Origin: an uncultured Lachnospiraceae bacterium
GTDB taxonomy: Bacteria > Bacillota > Clostridia > Lachnospirales > Lachnospiraceae
NCBI GenBank assembly: GCA_947167135.1
Contig: CAMVGV010000021.1
Location: 1-42,026 of the forward strand
Length of the DNA: 42,026 bases
Direction of reading: 5' to 3'
In this document: one piece after another, positions 8,816 to 41,902 of the stretch
Layout of the letters: each line of letters begins with the position of its first letter
Numbering within the stretch: the stretch's first letter is position 1
The notes under the pieces: generated by a model
Seen by the model: the letters and a program-made list of their open reading frames with translations, nothing else
Database searches by the model: none
Told to the model about the DNA's origin: nothing
Made by a program: the position numbers and the translations under genes

Positions 8816-9346
8816 ATGAAGGACAGAAAAAATGAGCTGTTAAAGGAGCTGGAAGCAGGATTAAAAGAGGACAGTGGTATAGGGGAAATATCAATGTTTA
8901 CGGCTGAGGAGCTGGAGACCCCCATGGGCATTCTCCGCTCTGAGATCACCGGATTCGGACCGGGCCTTATAAGTGTTCTCGGGGAATTCTTTTTTCTTCC
9001 CATAGAGGATGATGATCATTTCTTTTTCTCAACCGTCATCACGCTGTCCGGCACTGTGCCGCCGGAGGCCGCGCCGGACGTGGCTTCTGCCATTGCAAGG
9101 CTGAATTATTATGTACCGGTTGGATGCTATGCCCTCGGAGATGATGATAAAAATCTCATCTTCCGCCTGACAGCCTTAATTAACATAAGCGATGACATAA
9201 AGAAACAGTCGGGAGAGATACGGAAAGCAGTCAATATCGCCCTCGGAGCCGGAGAAAAGTATTTCGGCTATCTCCTTATGGTCATCAATAATGAGATCAG
9301 TGTGGATGATATGATGAAAATGCTGGGCGGAGGAACGCTTCCTTAA
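8816..9346 (+). CDS. Small acidic YbjN/CesT-like protein (module A, possible chaperone)
   Basis: A 176-residue acidic protein with no signal peptide or membrane segment. I do not recognise a named family with certainty. The middle (HFFFSTVITLSG, then a helix PPEAAPDVASAIARLN, then two strands ending IFRLTAL and a long helix) has the strand-helix-strand plan of YbjN and type III class I chaperones. The protein at 17277-17885 has a similar order of elements, and both stand upstream of a giant protein, so a shared role as a dedicated partner is likely. The ATG at 8816 is the only start close to the beginning of the frame. It is the first gene of module A. Confidence 0.7.
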   Translation: MKDRKNELLKELEAGLKEDSGIGEISMFTAEELETPMGILRSEITGFGPGLISVLGEFFFLPIEDDDHFFFSTVITLSGTVPPEAAPDVASAIARLNYYVPVGCYALGDDDKNLIFRLTALINISDDIKKQSGEIRKAVNIALGAGEKYFGYLLMVINNEISVDDMMKMLGGGTLP

Positions 9347-9361
9347 AGGGAGGAGCAGGAA

Positions 9362-10192
9362 TTGAAGATAAGAAGGATCACAAACCAGAATTTAAAATAT
9401 TTCCGTCCGCTTTTAACCGGAGGCAGGCTTAAGGGCAGGCATAATGTGATCCGTCTCGGCCTGCTTACCGATGATGATGTGGTAGCGGGTGCGATACAGG
9501 CAAGAATATATGAAAAAACAGCTGATATTAAAAGTCTGTATATTTATCCTCAATACAGAAAACAAGGGGGCGGAAGCGCTCTGTTAAAGGTGATTTCGGG
9601 TTTAGTCAAAGCCCGGGGATTTGAGGCTCTGACAGGAGAATTTCTTGATGATCCTGCCGCCGTCAGCTTCGCAAGATCCCTGGGCTTTGAGCTTTTTCCG
9701 GGGAGGAATCAGTATTACTTCAGCCTGAAGGAGTATTACAGGTCGCCTCTCTATAAGAAGTTCGTGGAGGGAAGGGAGAAAAGCAGGATGAAAACCGTCT
9801 CCTCCTTAAGCAGCAGGGAGCAGGCCATTTTCCGGAGCTTTATTAAATACGGAGACTATGATCCCGAATGGAGTACTGCCCATATCGAAAAGGGAAGGGT
9901 TTTAAGCTGCATGATGGTAAAGCCGGAGGGAAACTGTATCTCCGTGCCTTTTTTATATTCCGTAAGCAGTGACAGGATGGAATTTCTGAATCATATACGC
10001 TCTCTTTCCCAAAAGGTGTCGGGGAGAGTGAGTAACAGGGACGTGATCGTCAGGATGACCTTTCAGCAGGATAAGTATGAGCAGAGCTTTAAAAGGCTCA
10101 TAGGCGGAAAAGAGCATATGCATAAGGACGGGCAGTATATGACGGCTGTTAAGCTTCTGCAGGAAAGAGGTTCGGATGTCAGACGCAGGTAA
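9362..10192 (+). CDS. GNAT-family N-acetyltransferase with extra C-terminal domain
   Basis: A 276-residue protein. The N-terminal half (about 1-125) is a GNAT fold: the acetyl-CoA-binding motif A is LYIYPQYRKQGGGSALL, near residues 56-72, followed by the motif B-like helix AAVSFARSLGFELF. Residues 130-276 form a second domain I do not recognise. The start is TTG at 9362, preceded by GGGAGGAG, 15 nt after the preceding gene. Its end overlaps the giant gene by 17 nt, so translation is coupled. Context suggests it modifies one of its module partners, but the substrate is unknown. Module B lacks a counterpart. Confidence 0.8.
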   Translation: MKIRRITNQNLKYFRPLLTGGRLKGRHNVIRLGLLTDDDVVAGAIQARIYEKTADIKSLYIYPQYRKQGGGSALLKVISGLVKARGFEALTGEFLDDPAAVSFARSLGFELFPGRNQYYFSLKEYYRSPLYKKFVEGREKSRMKTVSSLSSREQAIFRSFIKYGDYDPEWSTAHIEKGRVLSCMMVKPEGNCISVPFLYSVSSDRMEFLNHIRSLSQKVSGRVSNRDVIVRMTFQQDKYEQSFKRLIGGKEHMHKDGQYMTAVKLLQERGSDVRRR

Positions 10193-13100
10193 AGAAAAGC
10201 TATTACGGCAGGTCAATGTAAGAACCCAGGAAACGCTGCAGCTGTCACAGAGTACACAGGCAGATCAGTTTCAGGATCTGGAAACTCTTTTACAGGCACA
10301 GGAGTTTCAGGGTCAGATAACGTCTCCGCTTTTATGGCACAGTGTCAATGCCTTGCCGGTGGCTAAGCCGCAAGCGCAGGTGCAGGTCAGTGATGTGACA
10401 AATGCCTATAGAGACGTTAAGTTAACGCTTTCATCAAATTCCCATAAGGCAGAAGAGAGGCGGGCGGAGGCACAGGCTAAACGGAATGAACAGTCTGACC
10501 TGATCGGCCGGCATAATGCTTATGAAGCACAGGCTGCTCAAGTAAAACAACAGGAAAAGGTGCATGAACAGACACGGCTTGGAGAGATCAGGACAGAGTT
10601 GAGTCAAAAGCCCGGTCAGGATCAGACCACGCTGGACAGAGATGCAAAGGCACAGCTGGAATCAGAGCTTGAAGAAAAAAAGCTTATCAGGCAGAAAAAT
10701 GTTTTTTCTGTATTCATAACTGATTATAAGGATCTGGAAAAACTACTGGAACACAAAAAGGGTGAGTCATATTTTGTTCTGCTGAGAAGAAATTATGGCA
10801 AACTGAAAGGCATTTCAAAAAACCTTCCTGACTATTATAAGGAGATAAAGAGGCGTTTATCACTTTCATCTCTTGATGAAGGGGAAAAGGATTCTCTTCA
10901 AAAAGCTCTCTCCCATGCCATGGCTCTCGGGGATATCTGTGCCCATTTTAACATCATTGAAAATCTGATGATGAATAAGTATTATTCTCTGGTCCCGGAG
11001 AAGGAGATGCTTTCACTTTCAGCAGAGGAGCTGGATAAACGGTTAAAGGAGCAGTATGCTGCCAATCCTCCCGCTAATCAGGAGCTTATCGACTTTTATC
11101 TGAATCTACGGAGGCTTAAGAATATAGGCTTTGTGGACGGGGAGACTGTTACGGAAAGGCAGGAAAGATACTATTCCGACATAAAGCAGAGCGACGAATT
11201 ACAGCAGCAGCAGGGCCAGCAGCAGGGCCAGCAGCAGGGAGCACAGGCACAGCCGCAGGTTAAGCTGAGCTCAAAGGAAATGAAAGCCCTGGAAAAAAGG
11301 GTAAATAGTATTGCCGATTCCTTTGAAAAGCTTGAGAAGCTTACGGGGTCAAAGGGCGCACTTGTTGATAAATCAGCGTACTATCAGCAGTTTTTCAGAA
11401 CCTTTGGAAAAGATATAAGTGATTTTGATGCTAATTACAGCGGAGACAGGACGAAGCTTTCCAAAGTATTATTCCGGATGATCGTTGAAAGCAGGAACTG
11501 GGCCTTTGAGGAGACACAGCAGGGTCAGGCACAGCAGCCTCAGCCCATTGCTCTTGATCCGGTACAGAAAAGCATCAGAGACGACATTAGCGGCCCGCAG
11601 CCTCAGCAGCAGGGAGCACAGGCACAGCCTCAGCAGCAGGGACTGGCGCAGGGGATCAACGAAAAGACCCTTGAATTCTCCCAGTCCACTTTAGGTATAG
11701 AGCTTCTCCCAGAGCAGACGGAGGGCGCAAGGAGCATAGAGAAATATCTTCTAAGCTATGCATTGTATGAAGCAAAGGGACACGAAGCCTTTGTATTTAA
11801 TTTGCTTAAGGTAAGTCCGGAGCAGCGTATGCTGGTATTTTACCTTATAGAGAGGGGGATGGAGGGAAGCGCCGGAAAAGCCGACTATGTTGCCGCCCTC
11901 CATAATTATACGCCAAACAGGGAGAGATTCACGAAAGCAACGGGAAAAGGTGGCTTCTGGGGTAAGCTTTCCTTGGCACTCCGTGCTTCCATGTCGATCT
12001 ATGAAGACATTAAGCAGTACGGACAGGCTGCAGAAGAAGTAGAGCAGAGTGACCAGGCTATTAAGAGGGATAATGATCCTGCAAATGCTGCCCAGGTTCA
12101 GGATCAGGACAGGGCAGACCACATAGTGGCAGCCATTTCCGCCAGAGGGAAATTATTATTGGCCATGTACAGGAGTGCAGGGCTTTCGGACAAAATGCCG
12201 CCGGATATGGCGTCTGACCCCGTTACAAGGCAAAAGCTGTTTGACGAATACGGTAAGATCATCTCTCTTGTAGGTGATCTTGACAGGCTCTTAAAAAGCC
12301 GGCAGGGTCAGGCAGCTCCGCAGGGTCAGGCACAGCAGGGACAGGCAGCCCCCCAGGCGCCGCTGCAGGTGAATGCGACTGACTACAGTATGGCTCAAAG
12401 GCAGGGAGGTCCCATAGAGGGTAAAAAGGAGGGGGTTATCAAGAGGGCAATCGAGAAAGCCGGTATGGTCAGGAAACCCGGTGATATCGTTACTAAGGTT
12501 GGAGACGGAATTACAAAGGCTTTCGGGCTGGGAGGCGGTGCAGCTGCATATGTGACCGGAGGAGCCGCTTATCTTTCATCTGCAGCAGGAGTCTTTGCCG
12601 CAGGTGGTCTTGTGGGATTTATTGCTGTGCTTACGAAGATCCTTTCCGCAATTAATGATAGAGAGAAGATCACCGCCGCAGATAAGGCTATGAAGGGAAT
12701 TGAAATATCGGGTGATATTTTTGGCTTGGGTGCAGCAGGTACAAAAACTGCCGGAGGGATAATTGCTGCAATGCATACAGGCATTACCGGCAGCACCGGA
12801 AGCTGGCTCGGTTCAGAATTCTTCAGTACTGCGGGTACGACGGCACAGCTTTCACTCTCTGCCGGAGCACTCGGAGTAGCAGCCGGAGTGATGAAATTTG
12901 CCTCATCCACAGGACAGCTGGTAAGGGAGGAAAAGGCCAAAAAGGAGCTTGAGGCAGCCGAAGCGGCGCAGAAGGCGCAGCAACTGGCGCAGCAGCAGGG
13001 ACAGGCTGCACAACCGGCACAGCAGCAGGATGATACGCTTACAAGATTTTTGAGCCATCAGAAAAGAGATATCGAAAGAAAGAAAAATAGCGCCGGTGCC

Positions 13101-13655
13101 GGTATGGGAACCGGTTTTGCGCTTACTTTGGCAGGAGTATTTGCAATGACGGGAGCACTTGCCCCTCTCGGAGCCATAATCGGGATCCCTGCGGTGGTAT
13201 TTGATCTGGTCTTTAGATATGCTATTGACAAATCTAAGAGAGATGAAAACAGGACTCGGGCTGTGGATGAATTTCTTAAGCTCGATCAAATGCTGGCACA
13301 TACGAGGGCTATCCCGGCAACGGCACAGAGAATAAGCCAAATGGATGATGAAGTGCTCCGGGAAAGCGTCAGGCAGGAAGCGATGGCATCCATGGGCTTT
13401 GCTTCCGTGGAGGATTGCTTCCGCGAAATATGCTTCCGCTTTGCGGATGTGCTTCACAGGAATGTATTCAGTAACCAGGGTCAGGGTCAGGGACAGGGTC
13501 AGGGACAGGCGCAGGGACAGGCTCAGGGTCAGGGACAGGCGCAGGGTCAGGATCAGGCCATGTATGAAAACGCCCTGCGATCATTGAATCTCAAGGTTGA
13601 CATTGCTAAAGGGATCCCCTCGGTTGAGGCCATAGTGGAAAGGATGATGTCCTGA
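10176..13655 (+). CDS. Giant Q/G-linker protein with hydrophobic C-terminal third (module A)
   Basis: A 1159-residue protein with no recognised domain and no signal peptide. It begins MSDAG. Helical, coiled-coil-prone blocks are separated by Gln/Gly/Ala/Pro linkers at about residues 343-363, 447-458, 474-494, 709-731, 928-952 and 1100-1129. Gly/Ala-rich hydrophobic stretches lie at about 783-827, 844-872, 883-915 and 972-1018, then a helical tail ends the protein. The start ATG follows AGGAAAGAGG and lies inside the GNAT gene. The segment RFLSHQKRD...FRYAIDK aligns with the equivalent part of the giant at 17897. A secreted effector or pore/translocator-like protein is a possible reading; an intracellular scaffold is another. 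Confidence 0.8.
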   Translation: MSDAGKEKLLRQVNVRTQETLQLSQSTQADQFQDLETLLQAQEFQGQITSPLLWHSVNALPVAKPQAQVQVSDVTNAYRDVKLTLSSNSHKAEERRAEAQAKRNEQSDLIGRHNAYEAQAAQVKQQEKVHEQTRLGEIRTELSQKPGQDQTTLDRDAKAQLESELEEKKLIRQKNVFSVFITDYKDLEKLLEHKKGESYFVLLRRNYGKLKGISKNLPDYYKEIKRRLSLSSLDEGEKDSLQKALSHAMALGDICAHFNIIENLMMNKYYSLVPEKEMLSLSAEELDKRLKEQYAANPPANQELIDFYLNLRRLKNIGFVDGETVTERQERYYSDIKQSDELQQQQGQQQGQQQGAQAQPQVKLSSKEMKALEKRVNSIADSFEKLEKLTGSKGALVDKSAYYQQFFRTFGKDISDFDANYSGDRTKLSKVLFRMIVESRNWAFEETQQGQAQQPQPIALDPVQKSIRDDISGPQPQQQGAQAQPQQQGLAQGINEKTLEFSQSTLGIELLPEQTEGARSIEKYLLSYALYEAKGHEAFVFNLLKVSPEQRMLVFYLIERGMEGSAGKADYVAALHNYTPNRERFTKATGKGGFWGKLSLALRASMSIYEDIKQYGQAAEEVEQSDQAIKRDNDPANAAQVQDQDRADHIVAAISARGKLLLAMYRSAGLSDKMPPDMASDPVTRQKLFDEYGKIISLVGDLDRLLKSRQGQAAPQGQAQQGQAAPQAPLQVNATDYSMAQRQGGPIEGKKEGVIKRAIEKAGMVRKPGDIVTKVGDGITKAFGLGGGAAAYVTGGAAYLSSAAGVFAAGGLVGFIAVLTKILSAINDREKITAADKAMKGIEISGDIFGLGAAGTKTAGGIIAAMHTGITGSTGSWLGSEFFSTAGTTAQLSLSAGALGVAAGVMKFASSTGQLVREEKAKKELEAAEAAQKAQQLAQQQGQAAQPAQQQDDTLTRFLSHQKRDIERKKNSAGAGMGTGFALTLAGVFAMTGALAPLGAIIGIPAVVFDLVFRYAIDKSKRDENRTRAVDEFLKLDQMLAHTRAIPATAQRISQMDDEVLRESVRQEAMASMGFASVEDCFREICFRFADVLHRNVFSNQGQGQGQGQGQAQGQAQGQGQAQGQDQAMYENALRSLNLKVDIAKGIPSVEAIVERMMS
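13474..13557 (+). repeat. In-frame CAGGGN hexanucleotide repeat tract
   Basis: About 14 degenerate 6-bp units (CAGGGT, CAGGGA, CAGGCG, CAGGCT) encode an alternating Gln-Gly/Gln-Ala linker near the C terminus of the 1159-aa protein. Because the unit is six bases, slippage would change linker length without breaking the frame. Confidence 0.9.
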
Positions 13656-13678
13656 TCTCTGCTGTTTTGGTAAAGACT

Positions 13679-15442
13679 TTATGCTTCCGTCAATGTCAGG
13701 CCCTCAAGCCCCGGAGCAATGGCCATTGAGAAATTTGTGTAGTATACGCAGAAGCCGGGTTTTGAGCCGGCGGGCTTCTTCACTTCTTTTTTCAGGACAT
13801 AGTCGATCTCAACCTTCGACTGGTCTCTCCCCTTACTGTAATAGGCAGCCAGAGCGCCTGCCTCATTAAAAGCACGGTCCGGCACCGCATCCGGCCCGTC
13901 CTTCTTAACCTTCAGTATCACATGGGACCCCGGAAATTTCTTTGAGTGGAACCACCAGTCATTTCCGTTTGCGAGCTTAAATGTCAGATAATCATTCTGG
14001 AAATTATTTTTTCCCACATAGAGGTCGTAACCGTCACTTGAGACATAATGCAGAGGCTTGCCGCTTTCTGTTTTTTTCTTACCCTTACCGAGTCCTTTCC
14101 ACTTTATGTATCCCGCATCCATAAGCTCACGCCTTACTTCCCCGATATCCGCTTCATTTTCGATGGTATCAAGGGAAGCATGCACAGATAGAAGGTGTTC
14201 GAGATCCGCCTTTGTCTCCTTAAGCTGCTCCGTCACGGCTTCCTCCGTGCGCTTCAGCTTCTGATAGCGTTCAAAGTACTTTTGGGCATTTTCCAGCGCT
14301 GTTTTCTGTGGATCAAGGGGAATTAAGATCTCTTCATTACTGTAGTAATTTAAGCAGGTCAGGGACTTATCCCCGGGAGATGCGGTATATCCGTAGGTAT
14401 TTAGTAGCTCCCCATAGATCCTGTATTTTTCCTTTTTTTCGGTGCTTTTAAGCTGCTTAAGCTGTATATCGTACTTCTTTGAATCCCTCTCTATTATTGT
14501 GGAAACTATTTTCCGGAGATCTGCGGAGCGCTGCTTGATCCTCTCAGCCCTGTTCTTTTCCGCATAAAAGCGTTCCAGAACCTCCGAAACGGAGTCAAAT
14601 CCCCTTATTTCAAGATCCCGGTACTGTAGAAGATGAACCGCGGCAAAATCCACCGGAGCGCCCTTTTTGTCATAAATGATCTCCGGGGAAAAACTGCCGT
14701 TATTTATTGCTTTGATCAATTCGGAAAAAGCGTCATACAGCCTTTCCAGAGCGTCATCCCCTATGGCTGCCACCGATGAATTCCCGTCTATCCCTGCCCT
14801 GAAGCAGAGGTCGCTTGCTTCTACAGGAGAAATACCGGTGAAATTATTATATACAGCCTTTATCACATTATCCGGAGTGCTCTTAATGGTTGACATAAAA
14901 TCAGAACGTTCCACAGAACTCAAAGGGTCTGTCTTATTCTGTGTTTCCGGGATAAAATACGCTTTTCCCGGCAGTACCTCACGTACGGAGCTCACTGAAG
15001 CGCTGATATGCTTTATACTGTCTATCACAGTGTCACTGCCGTCAACAAAGATGATATTGCTGTATTTTCCCATAAGCTCGATAACAAGGTACTTTTCTGT
15101 CATATCCCCCATTTCATCCATATGCTCTATGCCTATCCTTATCACACGCTCGAGACCGGGCTGCGTAACACTCGTTATCCTCCCGTTCTGGGCGTGTTTA
15201 CGGAGCAGCATACAGAAATTCGGGGCAGTGGCAGGGCTTTGCTTGTTTTTTTCCGTAAAATACACGAAAGGAAGAGACGCAGAGACTGAAATAAAAAGTC
15301 TCCGCGTCCCTCCGTCATTTGTTTTTACCGTTATCAGTATTTCGTCATTTTCCGGCTGGGCGATCTTGTAAATACGTCCGTCCAGGACTTCCCTTTTTAT
15401 CTCATGGGTGATCGCCGCAACCGTAATTCCGTCTAATGCCAT
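13679..15442 (-). CDS. rqcH: NFACT-family ribosome rescue factor RqcH
   Basis: A 587-residue NFACT protein. The N-terminal NFACT-N domain begins MALDGITVAAITHEIKRE and contains the conserved E98-R99 pair (GLERVI), at the position where characterised RqcH has an acidic-Arg pair. A coiled-coil region follows at about 290-420. The C-terminal NFACT-R domain holds YVGKNNFQNDYLTFK and DWWFHSKKFPGSHV. RqcH binds obstructed 50S subunits and recruits tRNA-Ala to add poly-Ala degradation tails; it was earlier named fibronectin-binding protein FbpA. AAAGG lies 8 nt before its ATG. It converges on the giant gene with only 23 nt between stops, and no clear terminator is visible there. Confidence 0.93.
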   Translation of the reverse strand: MALDGITVAAITHEIKREVLDGRIYKIAQPENDEILITVKTNDGGTRRLFISVSASLPFVYFTEKNKQSPATAPNFCMLLRKHAQNGRITSVTQPGLERVIRIGIEHMDEMGDMTEKYLVIELMGKYSNIIFVDGSDTVIDSIKHISASVSSVREVLPGKAYFIPETQNKTDPLSSVERSDFMSTIKSTPDNVIKAVYNNFTGISPVEASDLCFRAGIDGNSSVAAIGDDALERLYDAFSELIKAINNGSFSPEIIYDKKGAPVDFAAVHLLQYRDLEIRGFDSVSEVLERFYAEKNRAERIKQRSADLRKIVSTIIERDSKKYDIQLKQLKSTEKKEKYRIYGELLNTYGYTASPGDKSLTCLNYYSNEEILIPLDPQKTALENAQKYFERYQKLKRTEEAVTEQLKETKADLEHLLSVHASLDTIENEADIGEVRRELMDAGYIKWKGLGKGKKKTESGKPLHYVSSDGYDLYVGKNNFQNDYLTFKLANGNDWWFHSKKFPGSHVILKVKKDGPDAVPDRAFNEAGALAAYYSKGRDQSKVEIDYVLKKEVKKPAGSKPGFCVYYTNFSMAIAPGLEGLTLTEA

Positions 15443-15495
15443 ATTATGCCTTTATATCTTCATAGACCCTGAGCAGGAAGCATTTACAGCACTTG

Positions 15496-15678
15496 CAAGT
15501 TGGGTAAAGATACTATTTCGAAGCAATCAGCCAAAAGTTCTTAGTGAAAGCCTCTTCGATTAGCCCGATTCGAGGACTGTTTGAGCGAAGCGAGTTCCGC
15601 AGAATCGGGCTGTATATGAGAAGATGCTTGAGCTTAGAACTTTTGAGCGCGGAGAAATAGTATCTTATACCCAACTTG
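15496..15678. repeat. Long imperfect inverted repeat between pfp and rqcH
   Basis: The outer arms are 15496-15519 (CAAGTTGGGTAAAGATAC...) and 15654-15678 (...GTATCTTATACCCAACTTG), nearly perfect complements. A second pair is AAAAGTTCTTA at 15533-15543 with TTAGAACTTTT, and a third is AGCCCGATT (15562-15570) with AATCGGGCT (15603-15611). The tip contains TTTGAGCGAAGCGAGTTCCG. The nested pairing can fold as one arm of about 183 nt. It fits a MITE-like element or a structured RNA; being 34 nt past the pfp stop it could also end pfp transcripts. Confidence 0.85.
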
Positions 15679-15711
15679 CCATGTGTATGGATGTATCTCA
15701 CTCAGTTTTTT

Positions 15712-16971
15712 CTACAGCAGCTCCTGATAGCCCGGAACATAGAGGTGGCGGGGTATTCCGTCAACCATAACCGGAGCGACATCTCCCTGGATAAGAGGTC
15801 TTACGTAGGTGATGAACTCGCTTGTGACATAGGTTCCGTCCTTGGTGATCCATTCCCTCGGAACAAGCCTCTCGTCATTGGCGATCTTATGAACGTCCTT
15901 AACCTCGGTTCCTGCCTGGTAAGGATCGTCGGAAAGCCTCTCGATGACAACCATCTTTCCACTGTCTCCCTCGTCAGCTGCCTTCATTGCGGCACCGCCG
16001 ACTTCGTATGCTTCAAGGATATCAACCCTTGATGAGCAGTGGCTTGCGGCTCTCTGCAGGGTTGAAAGTTCGATAGCCCTTGTCTTGCAGCCGATCTCGT
16101 TTGAGAGAACCTCGCAGAGGTATCTTGCCGTACCTGTAAGCTGCTTATGTCCGAATGCATCAACATAGTCTGTGGCATTGCCCATCTCGCTGATATATGT
16201 TCCGTCTTTGGTGTGTATTCCCTCTGAAACCGCGATAACCACGGATGACTTTTTCTTTAAGAGTTCCTTACACTTCTTCACAAAGGCCTTTACATCAAAG
16301 TCAAGCTCGGGAAGGTAGATGGCATCGGGACCGTCACAGTCCTCTCCCTTTGAAAGGGCTGCAGCTCCGGTAAGCCAGCCTGCATTACGTCCCATTATCT
16401 CAACGATTATGATCTGTCCGTTTGAAGTCTCAAGACTCCAGCCGTCCCTTATGATCTCCTTAACCGATGTGCCGATATACTTAGCAGCTGAACCGTATCC
16501 GGGAGTATGGTCGGTAAGAGCGAGGTCATTATCGATGGTCTTCGGGCAGCCAACAAAGCGGATCTCGGAGCCGATGACTATCGCATAATCGGAAAGCTTC
16601 TTTATCGTGTCCATGGAGTCATTTCCGCCAATATAGATAAAGCAGTCGATCTCAAGGTCATCAAGGATCTTGAAGATCTTGTCGTAAACATCCCTGTCCT
16701 CATTTATGCCGGGGAGCTTGTAACGGCAGGAGCCGAGATAGGCACTGGGGGTGCGCTTTAAGAGCTCTGCGTCAAGACCGGTTCTGATATGATCGGAAAG
16801 GTCGATATAGCGTCCCTCAAGAAGCCCTTGCACTCCGTGGAGCATTCCGTATACCTTGCTGTATCCCCTGTCCTTCGCAGTTCTGAAAACACCTGCAAGG
16901 GATGAATTGATGGCTGCGGTCGGTCCGCCCGACTGGCCTACGATAACGTTTCTCTTTTTCTGTTTTGTCAT
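15712..16971 (-). CDS. pfp: 6-phosphofructokinase, pyrophosphate-dependent type
   Basis: A 419-residue phosphofructokinase. It phosphorylates fructose 6-phosphate to the 1,6-bisphosphate in glycolysis. Two positions separate ATP from PPi enzymes. ATP enzymes have GGDGS and PGTIDND; here they read GGNDS (residues 115-119) and PKTIDND (K144), the pattern of PPi-using enzymes, so pyrophosphate is the predicted donor. The MGRNAGWL segment binds the sugar phosphate. The start has a good AAAGGAG site. It is divergent from module B and has its own promoter; rqcH lies downstream on the same strand. Confidence 0.9.
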   Translation of the reverse strand: MTKQKKRNVIVGQSGGPTAAINSSLAGVFRTAKDRGYSKVYGMLHGVQGLLEGRYIDLSDHIRTGLDAELLKRTPSAYLGSCRYKLPGINEDRDVYDKIFKILDDLEIDCFIYIGGNDSMDTIKKLSDYAIVIGSEIRFVGCPKTIDNDLALTDHTPGYGSAAKYIGTSVKEIIRDGWSLETSNGQIIIVEIMGRNAGWLTGAAALSKGEDCDGPDAIYLPELDFDVKAFVKKCKELLKKKSSVVIAVSEGIHTKDGTYISEMGNATDYVDAFGHKQLTGTARYLCEVLSNEIGCKTRAIELSTLQRAASHCSSRVDILEAYEVGGAAMKAADEGDSGKMVVIERLSDDPYQAGTEVKDVHKIANDERLVPREWITKDGTYVTSEFITYVRPLIQGDVAPVMVDGIPRHLYVPGYQELL

Positions 16972-17090
16972 GTTATTTCTGCTCCTTTGTTTTATTTACG
17001 AACGTTCCTTACGTTCCTTCTCCGCTCTAAGATCCTTATGCATATCAGATTTATGAAAGGTTCCCAGACGGTCAGAATCCAACGGAAAAT

Positions 17091-17119
17091 AGTATATCAA
17101 AAAAAATACATACGGTAAA
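17091..17119 (-). promoter_or_regulatory. Predicted sigma-A promoter for pfp
   Basis: On the minus strand, -35 TTTACC (17114-17119), a 17-nt spacer and -10 TATACT (17091-17096), with an extended -10 TG one base upstream. It predicts a pfp leader of roughly 113 nt. Confidence 0.6.
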
Positions 17120-17176
17120 TGGAAAAAACACAAGAGATGCGACTTTTTGCGCCCGGTCTTCTGCTCTCTTTTCCGA

Positions 17177-17205
17177 TTGAAAACAGCGGGGTATTCTGAT
17201 AGAAT
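17177..17205 (+). promoter_or_regulatory. Predicted sigma-A promoter for module B
   Basis: -35 TTGAAA (17177-17182), exactly 17 nt of spacer, -10 TAGAAT (17200-17205), with an extended -10 TGA immediately before it. Transcription should begin near 17212, about 65 nt before the small YbjN-like gene. It is one of the best promoter matches in the window. Confidence 0.75.
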
Positions 17206-17276
17206 CAAAATGGCTGTTTCGGCGGAATAATACGGCGTTTAAGGGGAGCTGCCGGACAGAAATTTAAGGACGGATC

Positions 17277-17885
17277 ATGGCTATTAACAGTATTTCTGAT
17301 TTTGAAGCTGCTCTCCGGGAGAGCATGGAAACACTCTTTGGAAACTGCAGGACATATGAAGATGTCCTGAGGTCAGTATGCACCCATCTCGGGGTTTCGG
17401 ACACGGGCGCAATTATAGAAGCGGCTTTTGAAGCGGGGTTTAATCCTGACGCGCCCTATCCGGTTCTGCATTTTCATACGACTCTCGCTCAAAAGATAGA
17501 TGAAGAAAAGATTCCCGGGATACTTAAGGGGATAAATGAGCTGAATACCGTGATCTCGGCCGGAGCTTTCCCATCATTCGGATGCTTCGGATTTTACGCG
17601 CCTTTAAGCCAGATCTACTTAAGCTACAGGATGCCGGTGAATCCGGAGGTGCTGGAGGCGGAATTTGAAAATGCCAGGTTTTACCTTGGTTCGCTTTATG
17701 AGGAACTGGATCTTTTTACGGACTTCATTATGTTCCTCTGCAATGATCCGGAAAATCTTACCATAGATGCTTATATGGATTATCTTGATACCATAGCCGA
17801 TCTTGATAATATTGAGGCAAGGCTTGAGTTTTTGGAAAAAGTTGTCGGGGAGTACGGGAAAGATCAGAATGAAGAAGGGGAGTAA
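17277..17885 (+). CDS. Small acidic YbjN/CesT-like protein (module B, possible chaperone)
   Basis: A 202-residue acidic protein with no signal peptide. The N-terminal 55 residues are helical. Then follow PYPVLHFHTTL, a helix EEKIPGILKGINELN, paired strands around FGCFGFYAPLSQIYLSYRMPV, a long helix and LTIDAYMDYLD. This order of elements matches the protein at 8816-9346 (TVITL, AAPDVASAIARLN, NLIFRLTAL, ISVDDMMKML) and resembles YbjN or type III class I chaperones. I infer distant homology from pattern, not from strong identity. It lies 11 nt before the giant gene of module B, so the two are surely co-transcribed from the promoter at 17177. Function is unproven. Confidence 0.72.
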   Translation: MAINSISDFEAALRESMETLFGNCRTYEDVLRSVCTHLGVSDTGAIIEAAFEAGFNPDAPYPVLHFHTTLAQKIDEEKIPGILKGINELNTVISAGAFPSFGCFGFYAPLSQIYLSYRMPVNPEVLEAEFENARFYLGSLYEELDLFTDFIMFLCNDPENLTIDAYMDYLDTIADLDNIEARLEFLEKVVGEYGKDQNEEGE

Positions 17886-17896
17886 GGAGACAAGCT

Positions 17897-20800
17897 ATGC
17901 CTGATGCCGGACACGCGCAGGGTAATACAGCCGAAATGAAATTTGAAAAAGGCTTGCTTTCGGATACCGGAGCCCTTAATACCGATCAGACTATCCGTGA
18001 CGGTCTCACGGATGAAATGCGCTCCTTTATGGATAAGGGAGGGGATGATTTCTTCGATGATGAGGGTCCGAGACGAAACCTGATACCCAGGATACGGGAA
18101 ACCATCCTGAAGCGGATGATAAAGGAAAATGAGGACTCAAGTCATGACGCCGTCATAACGAGGAATAAGCATGATGAATTTACCAAAGAGAAAATGATGC
18201 CGCTTATTGAATCGTTTAAGAAAACGAAGAGAAAGTTTGTTTTGGCAGAGGCTGAGTATGACAGGGAGCTTATTCGCGCGAAAAAGCCTTCTTTATCCGG
18301 GAAATATGATGATCAGGGAGACAGCCTGATCGCTCCGAGGGTGCGGTTTTTATCGGGCCGTTCGGAGGAGGATGAGGGCTCGGAAAGCTCTGAAGCATTT
18401 TCTTCAGGCAGAAAGGGGACTGAGAGCGTTTCTCCCGAGGAAAGTATATCCGGATCCGGGAAGCTTGATGACGAAGATATCACCGTTGGGACAGGACTCT
18501 CCCCTGACGCAGTACCCTCCACCGGCACGGCCTCCACCACCGGCATTGATCTCGTAGAAGACACTTCCTCGGGAGCGTCGGAAGAGGAGGCGGAAGATCA
18601 GCCTCTTAGGCCGGTTACGGAGATAGATGCGAAGGAAAAGGCTGAGGATGACAAGAAGCTCGCAGAAATCCGGGAAAAGATAGCAATATACCAGAACCGC
18701 AGAAGAAAAGGTTATTTTTCCGACTTAGGACTCTTCCATTTCAGGAGGGCATATGAACGCGCGGCTTCTTCATACAGGAATGATAGATCGGCACTTATTC
18801 TTCAGCTTGCGAAGCTTTCCACTGAATGGGATAACATAAGAAAAGCGCGGCGGATCAGCACATTCAGGGTTCATTACAATAACTATGACAAATATGCCAC
18901 AGCACTCTACAAGTTTACGAGAGAGCTGGAAGGATTAACAACCAGAAAGATCGGACAGATCGGTAATAAGGATGCCTCAAAGAAGATAGCGGAATATACG
19001 GGACAGTACAATGCAAATCAGCTTGCCGGTATCGCTGATGAGATAGACAGAAACCCTTATAAGAGGTTCGGGCTTGAGAGGGTTAAGAGCCATAAGGATC
19101 TGGATGCGGATTCCTTTAATGAAGAGAGCCAGGACGGTCTTATTAAATATCATAAGACCATTGTTATGACTGCGTTTGAGGACGGTGTACGCACTCTTGC
19201 GGAGGAACAGGCGGCCGGGACCAAAAGGATCCGTATGAAAATGCTGAGTGATTTTCACGGATACAGGGCAAAAAACCAGTTTACGAGCAGAACTGACAGA
19301 ACAGCTTTAGATGTGGGAACCGATGCACGGAAAAGAGCATTGAAGCAGGATCCTGACGCACAAAATACAGATGCTCAGTCCTTGAACCTCGTTGCCGATG
19401 AAAGAGGAAAAAACGGAGAATATCTGGAATCGGAAAAGTCCGCATATATGCATCAGGTTGTTACGGATTCCCGGCGTAGCGTTTATGCATTTTACAGTGG
19501 TGGTGAGCTGTATTCGGAAAATTTTGCCGTGATGCGGGGAAAAGATCAGATATTACATTCCGTGAATGCTGAAAAGATCGAGCATGATGAGAGCCTGAGG
19601 CTTGCTATCAGGCGGTCGGATTTTTTCCGTCATATAAATGCCGGAACCATACAGTATTATATGGCCTACAATCCGGATGACGAATTTCACTCTGCAGAAA
19701 GTCTGCAGGCATTGCAGGGACAGGCAAACAGGGGACAGGGAGGACAGGGTACGCCTTCCTATCTGGCAATGAGGACAGTTCAGAATTATTTGAATAACAC
19801 TGCAACTATCGCTGACGTAAATCTTGCAGTTACCAATGCCGGTAAGAATGATGATATTGAAAATGTTAGAAAGCTCGGTATCTGGCTTCTTTCAGATGAT
19901 AACCACCCAGAATTATGGGATTCCGCGAGAACCCTGGCGCAGAATACCTGGGGGAAATTTGGGGGTCAGGGACGTTTCCGCCACCGTCTGCAGTCACTAC
20001 CGAAAAGCGGACAGGTAATGCGTATCGCCCTGATAGAAGAATTTGCAAAGGACAGGAGCATTGCAGATATGGGATGGAACGCTCTTTTCGACCTGAGAAC
20101 GGCAATCCTCCCTGATGATCTGAATATGCATTTTGAGGATCTGTCCGCAAAGCGTGACAGCACCTTTTCCCTGACAAACTTCAGGCAGAGTCTGGTGGAC
20201 GGAACAGTTGTCAGAGCGCTTTCGGGTGCAGCATCAGCTGTAAGCAGTGGTATATCCATAAGAGATCCCCAGGATGCCTGGGCTTCATATACAAAGAATT
20301 TTGCGATCTTATCACAGAGAGTCGGAGGCGGAGCAGTCGGAGCCGCAGGCGGGCTCAGCATTCCGGTATCGAATATTGCAGACTCCAATTCTCCGGGTTC
20401 AGATATAGCGGGAGCCATTGCGTCAGGTATTTCCGCGATAATGGACATAGCAAAGATATGGAGGATCTATAAGAAAAATCAGGATAACGCGGATCCTTAT
20501 ACCATGGGCCAGAATACAATAGAAATAGGCAAGCTGGTACTTAAAGCGATCTTTGACATAGTAGACTGTATAGTATCAATTGTTTCGGCTGTAGTTGACA
20601 AGATGCCTGCTGTGGTTTCGGGGATCATTGGGGCGATCAAGAATTTCATTGCCATTGTAAAGGATATTTGTATTCTTATTAAAACCGGAGCGGAGAAAAG
20701 CAGAATTACCGAATCTGACAAGGATATGAAGACCGCCCTTACGGAACACCAAAATAACCCTCAGGGTCAGTCGGAAAAGGAAATGCTTGGGACTGCGGTG

Positions 20801-21403
20801 GAAAACAGCTCCTATGGAAAGCACTTCCTTTCCTTAGCGAGAAAACGTGCGAATAAGGAGCAGCTAAATGCCGGCTTTGATATAGCTACGAACAGTGCGG
20901 ATCTTGTGGGAAACGGTCTTGTGGCCGGGGGAGTGGCTCCGTGGGGCTTCGGCTTTAAGCTCGGAGCGAAGGTTATTTCTTTTTTGGGATGGTGTGCCGG
21001 AAAGAAATATGACGCAAGTAATATGGACGAGATGATAGGTGCAGCTCTCGGAGATAAGAAATTTGCGTCGAGCCACTTCTACGATATTGACGGTGTCCTG
21101 AAGCGTGAAACCGGAATAGCAAACCGGCACTATCTTATGGATCTCTCCCGTATCTTTATGTCAATAGATACCCATCATCTGGTTCACTCGCCTAATCTGG
21201 ATCCCGGGGAGACCGCTCTTGCGATCAATCTGATGCGTCCGGTACTGGATCTGGTCGGAAGCGGGGAAAGAGCATATACAGATCAGCATAACAAGGCAGC
21301 AAATATCGCCAAGATGCAAGGCGCCACCCTTAAAAGGATAATGGGTGCCGTGGGAGCTCCGGGGAACTGGAGAGCGGTACTAAGGCAGTCCATATCGGGA
21401 TAA
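17897..21403 (+). CDS. Giant helical protein with hydrophobic C-terminal third (module B)
   Basis: A 1168-residue protein with no signal peptide and no domain I can name. It begins MPDAG, like the module A giant's MSDAG. Residues about 140-235 are an acidic Ser/Glu/Thr-rich disordered region; 240-600 are charged and helical; a short Q/G linker (QGQANRGQGGQG) lies near 608-619. Hydrophobic stretches are at about 809-856, 877-932 (very long, IVSIVSAVV and IIGAIKNFIAIV) and 999-1036 (LVGNGLVAGGVAP, then KVISFLGWCAG). A GGAGTAAGGAG site precedes the ATG. The HFLSLARKRANKE to GKKYDASN segment aligns with RFLSHQKRDIERK to DKSKRDEN of the other giant. It reads as a divergent paralogue. Confidence 0.8.
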   Translation: MPDAGHAQGNTAEMKFEKGLLSDTGALNTDQTIRDGLTDEMRSFMDKGGDDFFDDEGPRRNLIPRIRETILKRMIKENEDSSHDAVITRNKHDEFTKEKMMPLIESFKKTKRKFVLAEAEYDRELIRAKKPSLSGKYDDQGDSLIAPRVRFLSGRSEEDEGSESSEAFSSGRKGTESVSPEESISGSGKLDDEDITVGTGLSPDAVPSTGTASTTGIDLVEDTSSGASEEEAEDQPLRPVTEIDAKEKAEDDKKLAEIREKIAIYQNRRRKGYFSDLGLFHFRRAYERAASSYRNDRSALILQLAKLSTEWDNIRKARRISTFRVHYNNYDKYATALYKFTRELEGLTTRKIGQIGNKDASKKIAEYTGQYNANQLAGIADEIDRNPYKRFGLERVKSHKDLDADSFNEESQDGLIKYHKTIVMTAFEDGVRTLAEEQAAGTKRIRMKMLSDFHGYRAKNQFTSRTDRTALDVGTDARKRALKQDPDAQNTDAQSLNLVADERGKNGEYLESEKSAYMHQVVTDSRRSVYAFYSGGELYSENFAVMRGKDQILHSVNAEKIEHDESLRLAIRRSDFFRHINAGTIQYYMAYNPDDEFHSAESLQALQGQANRGQGGQGTPSYLAMRTVQNYLNNTATIADVNLAVTNAGKNDDIENVRKLGIWLLSDDNHPELWDSARTLAQNTWGKFGGQGRFRHRLQSLPKSGQVMRIALIEEFAKDRSIADMGWNALFDLRTAILPDDLNMHFEDLSAKRDSTFSLTNFRQSLVDGTVVRALSGAASAVSSGISIRDPQDAWASYTKNFAILSQRVGGGAVGAAGGLSIPVSNIADSNSPGSDIAGAIASGISAIMDIAKIWRIYKKNQDNADPYTMGQNTIEIGKLVLKAIFDIVDCIVSIVSAVVDKMPAVVSGIIGAIKNFIAIVKDICILIKTGAEKSRITESDKDMKTALTEHQNNPQGQSEKEMLGTAVENSSYGKHFLSLARKRANKEQLNAGFDIATNSADLVGNGLVAGGVAPWGFGFKLGAKVISFLGWCAGKKYDASNMDEMIGAALGDKKFASSHFYDIDGVLKRETGIANRHYLMDLSRIFMSIDTHHLVHSPNLDPGETALAINLMRPVLDLVGSGERAYTDQHNKAANIAKMQGATLKRIMGAVGAPGNWRAVLRQSISG

Positions 21404-38674: not shown

Positions 38675-40894
38675 ATGACTGATAATAAGCTGTTTGAAAA
38701 CCGAAAAGCCATGATCCTTGAATTTATGGAGAGTGATCTTTATGCTCCGATGAGGATAAAGGATATGGCAGAGCTTATGCTGGTTCCGAAGAATGAACGC
38801 AGCGACTTCAAAGCCGTAATAAACTCACTGGCAGATGATGGAGATATCATCATTAGCCGCCGCGGGTTATTAAAGCTTTCACCTCCGAAGCTTATTGGAT
38901 CCTTTGAAGCCCACGCCGGAGGCTTCGGCTTTGTCATAGTCGAGAACCGTGACAAGGATATTTTTATCAGAGGTGACGATACTCTTGGAGCCATGAACGG
39001 CGACACGGTGGAAGTCCGGATAGAAAGGAAACGGCACAGGCCGGAGGGTATTATAGTCAACATAATATCGAGAGCGGTAACCGATGTTGTGGGAACGTAT
39101 GAATCAGCCAGTAAAAAGGGTTCATACGGCTTCGTAATACCCGATGATAATAAAATAACTGATGATATATTTATTCCGTCTGACAGCCGGATGTCTGTTC
39201 CGGATGGAATGAAGGTTGTAGTCCACATTGAGAAATACGGAGACAGATTTCATAACTGTGAGGGCAGGATAACCGAGCTTATCGGTATGAAGGATGATCC
39301 CGGGGTCGATATCGAGTCGGTGATAAGATCATATGGCCTTCCGGGGGAATTTGAACAGAATGTTCTTAAACAGGCTGATAACGTGGCTAAACCCGTGTCG
39401 GATGCAGATATGGCAGGAAGACGCGATCTGAGGGGTCTTTTAACCGTTACGATAGACGGAGAGGATGCGAGGGATCTGGATGATGCCGTAAGTCTTTCAA
39501 TAGATGAGGACGGGAATTTCGATCTTGGAGTGCATATTGCCGATGTGGCTAATTATGTTCAGGAGAATTCAGCTCTTGACAGGGAGGCTTTTGAACGGGG
39601 CACGAGCGTGTATTTTCCGGACAGAGTCATCCCGATGCTTCCCACTGCCCTTTCAAACGGATGCTGTTCGCTGAATGAGAGGGAGGACAGACTGACTCTT
39701 TCCTGTCTAATGAAGCTTGACGGAAAGGGAAGGGTGATACAGTCAGATATCTGCGAAAGTGTGATAAATTCCGACCGCAGAATGTCGTACAATGAGGTAA
39801 AGGATCTCCTTCGGGGAACGGCTTCGGAGGAACTGAAGGAAGAATGTGCCTTTCTTTTGCCAATGCTTAAGGATATGGAAAGGCTTTCCGCCATACTGAT
39901 ATCCATGCGGAAAAAAAGGGGAGCCATTGACTTTGACTTTCCGGAAACAAAAGTAATCCTGGATGAAAGAGGACGGGTGGACAGACTGGAGCCGAGACTT
40001 TCAAATGTCGCCACAAAGATGATAGAGAGTTTCATGCTCGCTGCAAATGAGACGGTTGCCGAATACTCCTGTTTTCAGGAGCTTCCCTTTGTTTTCAGGA
40101 CACATGAGGAGCCTGATCCCGAGAAAATAAAAGCCTTGAGGGATTTTGTGATTAACCTTGGTTTTTCAATGAAGATAAGCCGTGACGGTATACATCCGAA
40201 GGAAATACAGAAGCTCTTAAACAGCATTGAAGGAACGCCGGAGGAAGGCCTTATCGCAAGGATGACGCTTCGGTCAATGAGACAGGCAAAATATACTACC
40301 GAAGCGGTCGGGCATTTCGGGCTTGCAGATAAGTATTACTGTCACTTTACCTCCCCCATCAGACGCTATCCGGATCTTCAGATACACAGGATACTTAAGG
40401 ATATGCTGAGAGGGCGTATGAACGGTGTCAGGATATCCCATTATGATGCGATACTTCCTCAGGTCTCGCTCAAGTCAAGTCAAAGGGAGAGAAGAGCCGA
40501 TGAGGCAGAACGGGATGTGGAAAAGCTGAAAAAAGTGGAATACATGCTTGACCACGTAGGAGATGAATATGAGGGTGTGATCTCAGGGGTTACTTCCCAT
40601 GGGATATATGTGGAGCTTCCCGATACCGTTGAGGGTATGGTACGCTTAAATGACATTTCCGATGACTTTTATGTTTTTAACGAGATAATGATGGAGGTCA
40701 GAGGAAAGAACACTGGCAGGATCTTTAGAATGGGTGATGCGGTAAAAGTAAAGGTCCTGTCTGCCGATAAAGATATGAGGACTATAGATTTTGCACTGAT
40801 AACGGATGACCGGGAAGCAGGTAAAACAGAGAAAAAGAGAGATATAAAAAATGCCATCAAAAAAGAACGAAGGAAAAAAGCTTATAGCAAATAA
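38675..40894 (+). CDS. rnr: Ribonuclease R
   Basis: A 739-residue RNase II/R family 3'-5' exoribonuclease that degrades structured RNA and works with SmpB-tmRNA. An N-terminal helix-turn-helix (about 20-65) and cold-shock domains precede the RNB catalytic domain, whose metal-binding DGEDARDLDDAVSLS starts at residue 261. An S1 RNA-binding domain lies at about 628-705 and is followed by a short basic tail. The start ATG lacks a clear Shine-Dalgarno but the N terminus fits the family. It overlaps smpB by 44 nt. Confidence 0.95.
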   Translation: MTDNKLFENRKAMILEFMESDLYAPMRIKDMAELMLVPKNERSDFKAVINSLADDGDIIISRRGLLKLSPPKLIGSFEAHAGGFGFVIVENRDKDIFIRGDDTLGAMNGDTVEVRIERKRHRPEGIIVNIISRAVTDVVGTYESASKKGSYGFVIPDDNKITDDIFIPSDSRMSVPDGMKVVVHIEKYGDRFHNCEGRITELIGMKDDPGVDIESVIRSYGLPGEFEQNVLKQADNVAKPVSDADMAGRRDLRGLLTVTIDGEDARDLDDAVSLSIDEDGNFDLGVHIADVANYVQENSALDREAFERGTSVYFPDRVIPMLPTALSNGCCSLNEREDRLTLSCLMKLDGKGRVIQSDICESVINSDRRMSYNEVKDLLRGTASEELKEECAFLLPMLKDMERLSAILISMRKKRGAIDFDFPETKVILDERGRVDRLEPRLSNVATKMIESFMLAANETVAEYSCFQELPFVFRTHEEPDPEKIKALRDFVINLGFSMKISRDGIHPKEIQKLLNSIEGTPEEGLIARMTLRSMRQAKYTTEAVGHFGLADKYYCHFTSPIRRYPDLQIHRILKDMLRGRMNGVRISHYDAILPQVSLKSSQRERRADEAERDVEKLKKVEYMLDHVGDEYEGVISGVTSHGIYVELPDTVEGMVRLNDISDDFYVFNEIMMEVRGKNTGRIFRMGDAVKVKVLSADKDMRTIDFALITDDREAGKTEKKRDIKNAIKKERRKKAYSK

Positions 40895-41324
40895 TAAAAA
40901 GGCTTTCCACGATTATTTTGTGGAGGAGCAGCTGGAGACCGGCATAGAGCTTTTCGGGACCGAGGTAAAATCAATAAGGGCAGGACACTGCAGCATAAAG
41001 GAAGCCTATGTGTTTGTCCGGCACGGGGAGCTCTTTGTCGAGGGTATGAACATTTCGCCCTACGAAAAGGGCAATATCTTCAATAAGGACCCCTTAAGAA
41101 CAAGGCGGCTACTCGCACATAAGAATGAGATATTGAAGCTTGACCAGAAGCTTAAGGAGAAGGGCTACACCCTGGTTCCTCTGGAGGTTTACTTTAAGGA
41201 AGGAAAGGTTAAGGTAAATATAGGCCTCGCCAAAGGAAAGAAGCTCTATGATAAGAGAGAGAGCATCGCAAAGAAGGACGCAAAGCGCGAGGCAGAGAGG
41301 GAGTTCAAGGCTTCCTTCAGATAA
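40851..41324 (+). CDS. smpB: SsrA-binding protein SmpB
   Basis: A 157-residue tmRNA partner that delivers tmRNA to stalled ribosomes. It shows LIANNKKAFHDYFVEE, ELFGTEVKSIRAGHCSIKEAYV, the LLAHKNEI block and the basic C-terminal tail (KKLYDKRESIAKKDAKRE) that enters the mRNA channel. The start MPSKKNEGKKLIANNKK gives the usual length and lies 44 nt inside rnr, so the overlap is genuine. ssrA follows 233 nt later. Confidence 0.97.
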   Translation: MPSKKNEGKKLIANNKKAFHDYFVEEQLETGIELFGTEVKSIRAGHCSIKEAYVFVRHGELFVEGMNISPYEKGNIFNKDPLRTRRLLAHKNEILKLDQKLKEKGYTLVPLEVYFKEGKVKVNIGLAKGKKLYDKRESIAKKDAKREAEREFKASFR

Positions 41325-41338
41325 AGCTGCGGGAACTG

Positions 41339-41390
41339 CTTGCCATCCGATTTGTCATCCGGTTTGCCATCCGGTTTGCCATCCGATTTG
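41339..41390. repeat. 12-bp tandem repeat
   Basis: About four and a third copies of TTTG(C/T)CATCCG(G/A), starting at 41339, 41351, 41363, 41375 and running into the next element at 41387. The unit resembles the left end (GTCATCC) of the adjoining palindromic repeat, from which it probably expanded. Confidence 0.85.
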
Positions 41391-41455
41391 TCATCCTGAG
41401 CGTTAGCGAAGGATCTTTCTTCTTACCTGTCATCCTGAGCGTTAGCGAAGGATCT
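41390..41455. repeat. Two direct copies of the dispersed repeat half-element
   Basis: GTCATCCTGAGCGTTAGCGAAGGATCT (in parts: GTCATCCTGAG, CGTTAGCG, AAGGATCT) occurs at 41390-41416 and 41429-41455. Same family as 1283-1346 and 28865-28942, but without the inverted right end. They lie between smpB and the ssrA promoter. Confidence 0.9.
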
Positions 41456-41469
41456 TAACTATTAGTTTA

Positions 41470-41498
41470 TTGAAATGTTTATATTTTAGTCTTATAAT
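41470..41498 (+). promoter_or_regulatory. Predicted sigma-A promoter for ssrA
   Basis: -35 TTGAAA (41470-41475), 17-nt spacer, perfect -10 TATAAT (41493-41498). Transcription would start near 41505, giving a 53-nt precursor leader that contains a hairpin (ATCCGCC 41508-41514 with GGTGGAT 41524-41530) and would be removed by RNase P. Confidence 0.8.
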
Positions 41499-41557
41499 TC
41501 CTATATGATCCGCCGATAAATATGGTGGATTCAAATGGTCATATATAAATTAAATAC

Positions 41558-41902
41558 GGGGTAGTACTGGTTTCGACAGGATTCCTGCAGCTGGAGAAGC
41601 TATCCGTGGGAGGTTCACGTAAAAACCCAAACTTAAATTTAAACGCAGACGATAATTACGCGTTAGCAGCTGCCTAAGCGCAGCCGCCGTCGGCACGGTT
41701 CTACCTGTGGTCCCGTTTACCGGCGTCATCATCACAGGAAACGACTATGGCAAAGCTTTGAGTCATAGGGCGTAATATGAAGCTACCGAACCCTTAAGGC
41801 TGTGCATTGCCGTAAGGCGGAGGGAATCCCAAATAATGCACTATGATAGTAGAAGGACAGGGAATGGTTTTTTGGACAGGGGTTCGACTCCCCTCTACTC
41901 CA
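41558..41902 (+). ncRNA. ssrA: Transfer-messenger RNA
   Basis: The 5' end GGGGTAGTACTGGTTTCGAC and the 3' end GGGGTTCGACTCCCC-TCTACTCC form the tRNA-like domain: acceptor GGGGTAG (41558-41564) pairs with CTACTCC (41895-41901), and the T arm has GGTTCGACTCC. The 3' CCA is not encoded (ATCA follows), so it must be added. The internal tag reading frame is at 41645-41677. tmRNA with SmpB frees ribosomes stalled on broken mRNAs and tags the products for proteolysis. Ends are from pairing, so may be off by 1-3 nt. Confidence 0.96.
41645..41677 (+). other. tmRNA proteolysis tag reading frame
   Basis: From the resume codon GCA: GCA GAC GAT AAT TAC then GCG TTA GCA GCT GCC TAA, giving A-DDNYALAAA. 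The hydrophobic ALAAA end is the usual Clp protease signal. Confidence 0.85.

Follow-up and report, generated by a model that had tools for sequence, protein, structure and literature searches.

We analysed a 42,026-nucleotide stretch of DNA from an uncultured Lachnospiraceae bacterium (the window), which is contig C21 of a 2.9-Mb source genome that is 99.83% complete. Two loci on its forward strand each encode a small acidic protein and a giant protein, and are termed small1/giant1 and small2/giant2. Both pairs are probably satellite cargo modules that serve a contractile injection system (CIS), the genes of which lie on contig C4 of this genome, and the small proteins are probably their dedicated YbjN-like chaperones. 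The genes of the two loci are as follows.

8816-9346, + strand: small1, 176 amino acids, acidic, YbjN-like
9362-10192, + strand: GNAT-family acetyltransferase, 276 amino acids, TTG start; Pfam Acetyltransf_1, E = 1.3e-8
10176-13655, + strand: giant1, 1159 amino acids, from its open reading frame and hydropathy
13679-15442, − strand: intervening gene, presumably RqcH/NFACT-like
15712-16971, − strand: intervening gene, presumably phosphofructokinase-like
17277-17885, + strand: small2, 202 amino acids, acidic, probable remote small1 homologue by profile match
17897-21403, + strand: giant2, 1168 amino acids, from its open reading frame and hydropathy

The original prediction, made from the window alone, described a two-copy module in which a small acidic protein is followed by a giant. 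The list of open reading frames agrees with it on the four coding regions and on the two minus-strand genes that separate the pairs, which were recognised by eye, without a family scan. It missed the GNAT gene, which sits between small1 and giant1, has GGAGG 5' of its TTG start and overlaps giant1 by 17 nucleotides; the gap between small2 and giant2 is 11 nucleotides. The acidity of the small proteins is confirmed, with isoelectric points of 4.40 for small1 and 4.11 for small2. Hydropathy likewise bears out giants without an N-terminal signal: both lack a hydrophobic N-terminus, and their hydrophobic segments are confined to the late chain (about residues 793-828 and 972-1020 in giant1, and about 837-932 in giant2).

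The two small proteins appear to share ancestry

Both small proteins had been called YbjN-like. Small1 matches the Pfam YbjN model (PF10722) with an E value of 0.067 and 13.9 bits, under the curated cut-off of 22 bits, and seven of the 15 members of its family match at E ≤ 1, the best at 5.4e-5. No direct YbjN match was found for small2 in the Pfam scan. The likeness is better for the small1 family than for small1 itself, which lies below the cut-off, and is not seen directly for small2. The Eag family (DUF1795) is not among the matches listed for the window proteins or the small1 family, and profile searches of solved structures gave nothing significant, the smallest E value being 0.096.

When profiles of 20 small1 and 5 small2 sequences are compared with hhalign, they align over 138 columns with 96% probability (E = 9e-9). 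Significance is reached only with these enlarged sets, since smaller ones gave 5% (3 versus 2 sequences) and 19% (15 versus 4). The small1 profile also retrieves all five small2 sequences at E values of 4.2e-5 or better, the next protein among the approximately 735 searched lying at 0.22. The reverse search with a small2 hidden Markov model (HMM) is weak: three small1-family proteins fall below 1e-3, and the small1 of the window reaches 0.042. A separate iterated search of a 710-protein database was lenient, and the homology is not rested on it. Together, these comparisons indicate that the small1 and small2 families are remote homologues, and the possibility that the two small proteins are unrelated is at odds with their sequence profiles.

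The common plan ascribed to the two loci extends less far to the giants, which share just a C-terminal hydrophobic stretch. Profile comparison aligns giant1 with giant2 only over about 110-130 C-terminal hydrophobic residues, and three such comparisons gave 76% (E = 2.3e-5), 90% (E = 1.7e-6) and 80% (E = 1.5e-5). With a giant1 HMM, one of four giant2 proteins falls below an E value of 1e-3.

A contractile injection cluster in the source genome carries a related pair

A genome-wide search for further copies and for contractile injection genes, which the original prediction had proposed, yielded both. The module is not restricted to two copies, as the source genome holds three further loci: two of the small1/giant1 type and one giant2/small2 pair. 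The small1 relatives are on contigs C73 (53%) and C38 (48%), where the gene orders are small1-giant1-GNAT-giant1 and small1-giant1-GNAT, respectively, bringing the giant1 copies in the genome to four. The remaining pair is on contig C4 with the giant first (giant2 at 64335-67712, small2 at 67719-68327).

This C4 pair closes a CIS cluster that spans C4:26254-68327. The cluster carries matches to Pvc16_N, DUF4280, sheath, gp19 tube, CIS_tube, Phage_base_V, gp25, Baseplate_J and Tail_P2_I, together with two genes for AAA+ ATPases, and the giant2 and small2 paralogues lie directly behind the second of these. It thus combines the sheath, tube, spike/OB, gp25, baseplate J, AAA+ ATPase and Pvc16-type cap components by which a CIS is recognised, and its sheath match is the only one in the source genome. 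Between Tail_P2_I and the AAA+ genes we noted by eye STAS-like, FtsE-like ABC and histidine-kinase-like genes.

A further candidate CIS effector set is located at C4 74533-81452, where a calpain-type giant and an acidic neighbour of 321 amino acids (isoelectric point 4.2) are preceded by a GNAT gene. The calpain giant is 1,590 amino acids long from a GTG start or 1,667 from an upstream ATG, matches PF00648 with an E value of 2.8e-16, and lies with its neighbour about 7 kb beyond the giant2 and small2 paralogues. When the profiles of giant1 and the calpain giant were compared, no similarity emerged.

A 16-base stretch is identical at L005 5139-5154, upstream of the C38 small1 gene, and at C4 21705-21720, upstream of a long gene that precedes the CIS cluster. 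In 161 kb of the source genome its 13-base core (with at most one mismatch) occurs only at those two places and at an inverted partner at C4 21742, and L055 and L057, loci that resemble C38, retain it. This observation is post hoc because the stretch was found by eye.

Relatives of both pairs adjoin injection genes in other genomes

Similar arrangements recur in other genomes; downstream CIS stretches were examined in 17 of 20 of them. The most compact is in G152, where AAA1-AAA2-giant2-small2-small1-giant1-GNAT are contiguous. G366 carries small2-giant2, two further genes and small1-giant1-GNAT, with CIS genes downstream, and in G041 a small1-giant1-GNAT set ends about 3 kb before the first CIS-cluster homologue. 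The order in G157 is baseplate, AAA1, a 441-amino-acid gene and small1-giant1-GNAT, followed by more GNAT genes and a relative of the calpain giant. Three genomes show the reversed order giant1-small1, adjoining CIS genes in G205 and G340 and a CIS-type AAA+ gene in G374. The small1/giant1 pair and the CIS genes of G156 were judged, from the contig's length, to share one contig, and in G016 a fragment of giant1, truncated where the contig stops, lies beside AAA1 and baseplate genes. Members of these families are thus encoded within or beside CIS clusters, a position expected of CIS cargo.

AD3010, presumably a rumen isolate, provides a comparison with C4. The giant2/small2 pair is missing there between AAA2 and a 562-amino-acid gene whose length and relative orientation are as in C4, as would be expected of exchangeable cargo.

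Pairing and co-occurrence with the sheath gene

The small1 family occupies 27 places, one of which (L050) was excluded since its sequence stops within the gene. At 24 of the remaining 26, a match to the giant1 profile, built for this count without the five most divergent giants, lies on the same strand within two genes of small1. The two places without a match are in G079, which has an orphan small1, and in G351, where the contig stops within a 552-amino-acid open reading frame. On the side of the giants, the giant1 profile matches four of 150 genomes drawn from the family; three of these four are sheath-positive, and three also contain a small1 relative, the exception being G016 with its unpaired fragment. 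The original prediction had asked whether the giants occur routinely without a small partner. From the small side, the partnership is seen at 24 of 26 places, and on the giant side in three genomes of four.

Scanning the contigs of the genome collection with small1 gave 12 loci in nine genomes, all Lachnospiraceae records and AD3010 among them. The records of four of the nine name the rumen, and a sheath is present in eight. In a draw of 397 family genomes, small1 relatives occur in 10, a sheath in 44 and both in 7. A sheath is thus present in 7 of the 10 small1-positive genomes versus 37 of the 387 others (Fisher p = 1.2e-5, or 7.7e-5 when the source genome is left out), where these p values, like the one that follows, ignore phylogeny and the genomes are related. 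Restricting the count to genomes with a completeness of 90% or more and a contamination of 5% or less leaves 4 of 5 versus 29 of 315 (p = 4.4e-4). The suggestion that the proteins are cargo of an injection system encoded elsewhere is therefore partly supported, by the pair in the C4 cluster, by linkage in other genomes and by co-occurrence with the sheath.

Several observations weigh against this assignment. The window loci are on a different contig from the CIS cluster, and two of the three paralogue places in the source genome also lie away from CIS genes in the stretches examined, as does a second small1-family place in G366 (contig C9), which shows no CIS gene in the 18 kb examined. The giant2 profile matched only the source genome among the 150. 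Two genomes of the same genus, each 99% complete, depart from the pattern: G389 has a sheath but lacks a small1 relative, and in G079 a single small1 stands alone, with neither a sheath nor a match to giant1 or giant2; the latter is a real counter-example to a strict linkage of small1 to the CIS. A cassette without a sheath occurs in G153, and small1 without a sheath in G023 (60% complete) and G351 (59% complete), the last of which has a CIS-type AAA+ match near its small gene. No small1 match accompanies the giant1 fragment anywhere in the G016 genome. Of the 44 sheath-positive genomes, 37 are without a small1 match, and the modules would therefore be an option of certain lineages and not a general component of CISs.

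The giants themselves add to these difficulties. Neither giant1 nor giant2 has a Pfam or NCBIfam match, DUF4157 or a known toxin domain, and their hydrophobic segments could act in the producer's own membrane. Across the giants, searches of Pfam, NCBIfam and PHROGs gave a few matches, each to a single member, at E values of 0.003-1, and wherever a curated cut-off is available no match exceeds it. The variable N-terminal regions of giant1 relatives and part of the G152 giant2 produced no Pfam match below an E value of 0.018, that value coming from Peptidase_C39 in one giant1 relative and lying below the cut-off. Other long open reading frames near CIS loci and other giants that we checked gave no result, one of them being a sensor kinase. 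Effectors of CISs have no signatures in common, which makes such cargo difficult to recognise.

The orphan small1 of G079, in a genome without a sheath, would suit a different view, in which the giants are substrates of a type VII secretion system (T7SS) or another secretion system, or act in the envelope of the producer, and the association with CIS genes reflects shared lineage. Long matches to the T7SS component EssC are also present in 3 of 12 genomes, two of them over the cut-off. Yet the T7SS genes that the original prediction had thought worth seeking in the genome did not emerge: the EssC-model match in the source genome scores just 110 bits versus a cut-off of 778, in a gene that by eye we take to be FtsK/SpoIIIE-like, and we rejected T7SS substrates for this genome on that ground. 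The search covered T7SS by its EssC model; secretion systems other than T7SS were not searched. Contiguous linkage to CIS genes across several genera also speaks against this view, which we consider the least probable of the alternatives. The orphan gene itself (L069 4812-5363) adjoins an 875-amino-acid gene, presumably for pyruvate phosphate dikinase as judged by eye, and may be a remnant or have a second role.

The length of the giants, their hydrophobic stretches near the C-terminus and the position of their relatives inside CIS loci could also point to structural or tethering parts of the CIS, either tape-measure-like or membrane anchors, with the small proteins as chaperones of the tail-assembly type. 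The actinobacterial CIS effector Sle1 is described as tape-measure-related with a transmembrane hairpin (PMC13277306). Nonetheless, the source genome encodes six giants of both families at scattered loci versus one sheath. The absence of giant2/small2 from the AD3010 interval and the 37 sheath-positive genomes without small1 argue in the same direction, and we rejected a structural part. No PHROGs match named as a tape measure is among those listed at E ≤ 1, although most PHROGs are unnamed and remote homology is possible. We regard a structural role as improbable.

Giant1 changes faster than its partner

Divergence from the AD3010 orthologues differs between the genes. Giant1 is 75% identical with a ratio of nonsynonymous to synonymous substitution rates (dN/dS) of 0.49. 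For comparison, small1 is 97% identical (dN/dS 0.25), the GNAT protein 95% (0.14), small2 98.5% (0.06), the readable part of giant2 90% (0.28) and the product of glgA 99% (0.03). By these figures giant1 evolves faster than its neighbours.

The small, acidic and tightly paired partner, found on either side of the giant, could instead be the giant's immunity protein or antitoxin. A matched immunity protein sits poorly with a small1 that is 97% conserved opposite a giant1 at 75%, with the single small1 gene beside two giants at C73, and with small1 and small2 families that seem to share ancestry when their giants share little. A constant small partner with a changing giant would fit better with a chaperone that acts on a conserved part of the giant, and we give immunity little chance of being the correct explanation.

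Positions of about 400-1010 of the giant1 family model are matched, with small gaps, in all 21 members (one of them truncated where its contig stops). In six of the 21, five of which had been excluded from model building, the first 280 positions find no match. The family thus combines a conserved C-terminal region with a more variable N-terminal region. The window giant1 contains Q/G-rich low-complexity linkers (10% Q) that are absent from its three paralogues. In the giant2 family, the G152 protein (2,093 amino acids) is about 900 amino acids longer than the others.

A GNAT gene accompanies giant1 and other candidate effectors

The GNAT gene of the window is over its Pfam cut-off (Acetyltransf_1, 35.6 bits versus 20.7). 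A match to a model of this GNAT family lies within two genes of small1 at 19 of the 24 small1 places that have a giant; two of the five without one (G151 b and G023) are cut by the contig end. Weak matches are uncertain because the model came from a lenient iterated search. In the CIS locus of G129 (L075 8675-14306), two genes encode Ntox11-domain proteins (E = 2.6e-50 and 1.1e-30), and each is followed by a GNAT gene of the same family, the whole set being placed between Tail_P2_I and AAA1. The GNAT family is thus a companion of more than one kind of candidate CIS effector. Calpain and Ntox11 domains are confined to such other candidate effectors of CIS loci and do not occur among the matches of the window giants.

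Elsewhere in the window, 40851-41902 contains an SmpB gene and then transfer-messenger RNA. A scan for promoter-like and terminator-like sequences returned 18 of the former versus 14.6 expected and 10 of the latter versus 12.0 expected.

A proposed route for the giants and its precedents

If both pairs do supply cargo to the CIS from satellite loci, the YbjN-like protein of each would be a dedicated cytoplasmic chaperone that binds the giant during or just after translation. It would shield the hydrophobic C-terminal helices of the giant from the membrane of the producer and keep the chain loadable, before passing it to the AAA+ ATPases of the CIS (Pvc15-type) for threading into the tube. Once the CIS has fired, the hydrophobic module at the C-terminus might insert into or cross the target membrane, and so expose or carry the variable N-terminal part. 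The GNAT that travels with giants of the giant1 type and with other candidate CIS effectors might modify the effector or protect the producer.

The chaperone role is proposed by analogy. AmyR, a member of the YbjN family, is reported to have a fold like that of class I type III secretion chaperones (PMC5398634). Class I chaperones resemble the present case in that a small acidic protein stands beside a large candidate effector; here, however, the sequence match is weak and the linked machine is contractile. Eag (DUF1795) proteins are dedicated chaperones for effectors with hydrophobic segments that are delivered by another contractile machine, the type VI secretion system. The present proteins differ in that DUF1795 is not among their listed matches, the hydrophobic part is C-terminal, and the machine is a phage-tail-type CIS.

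The closest precedent that we found for the giants is Sle1. Sle1 and Sle2 of the Streptomyces lividans CIS resemble them as helical cargo with a transmembrane hairpin close to the C-terminus, a partner protein that is separate and conserved, and a species-variable part; their partner is a DUF4157 protein and their variable part is C-terminal (PMC13277306). In contrast, the present system combines a YbjN-like partner with giants whose hydrophobic C-terminal part is conserved and whose N-terminal part is variable. Pvc15 is reported to stabilise cargo that bears a signal peptide and to be required for loading (PMC11495950). Toxins of extracellular CISs with Pvc15-type loading offer a parallel in AAA+-aided cargo loading and in toxin genes near CIS genes (PMC11495950, PMC8213781, PMC11297309). 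The present system differs from them by the lack of DUF4157, the separate YbjN-like partner, satellite loci off the cluster and the GNAT companion. Among the open-licence PubMed Central papers listed, we found no title or start of an abstract on such a system, and no co-mention of YbjN and 'contractile injection system'.

Implications for Lachnospiraceae

A more elaborate version of this proposal is possible, although we hold it only tentatively and think it rather unlikely as a whole. Under it, the loci would form a modular Gram-positive CIS package, with a constant hydrophobic C-terminal vehicle that needs a YbjN-family chaperone, exchangeable N-terminal payloads, an acylating GNAT as an on/off switch, and satellite loci that feed one syringe. 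If so, CISs would have evolved a chaperone logic of their own, parallel to type III chaperones and Eag proteins.

If the window pairs are cargo modules with dedicated chaperones, CIS effectors in gut Firmicutes could be sought, even at a distance from the cluster itself, through a small gene of the YbjN-like type next to a large gene that lacks annotation, whether or not a GNAT gene accompanies them. A further question would be how proteins that contain membrane segments are loaded by a contractile machine. The pairs would then point to a CIS arsenal in Lachnospiraceae, and to a new kind of partnership for phage-tail-like syringes.

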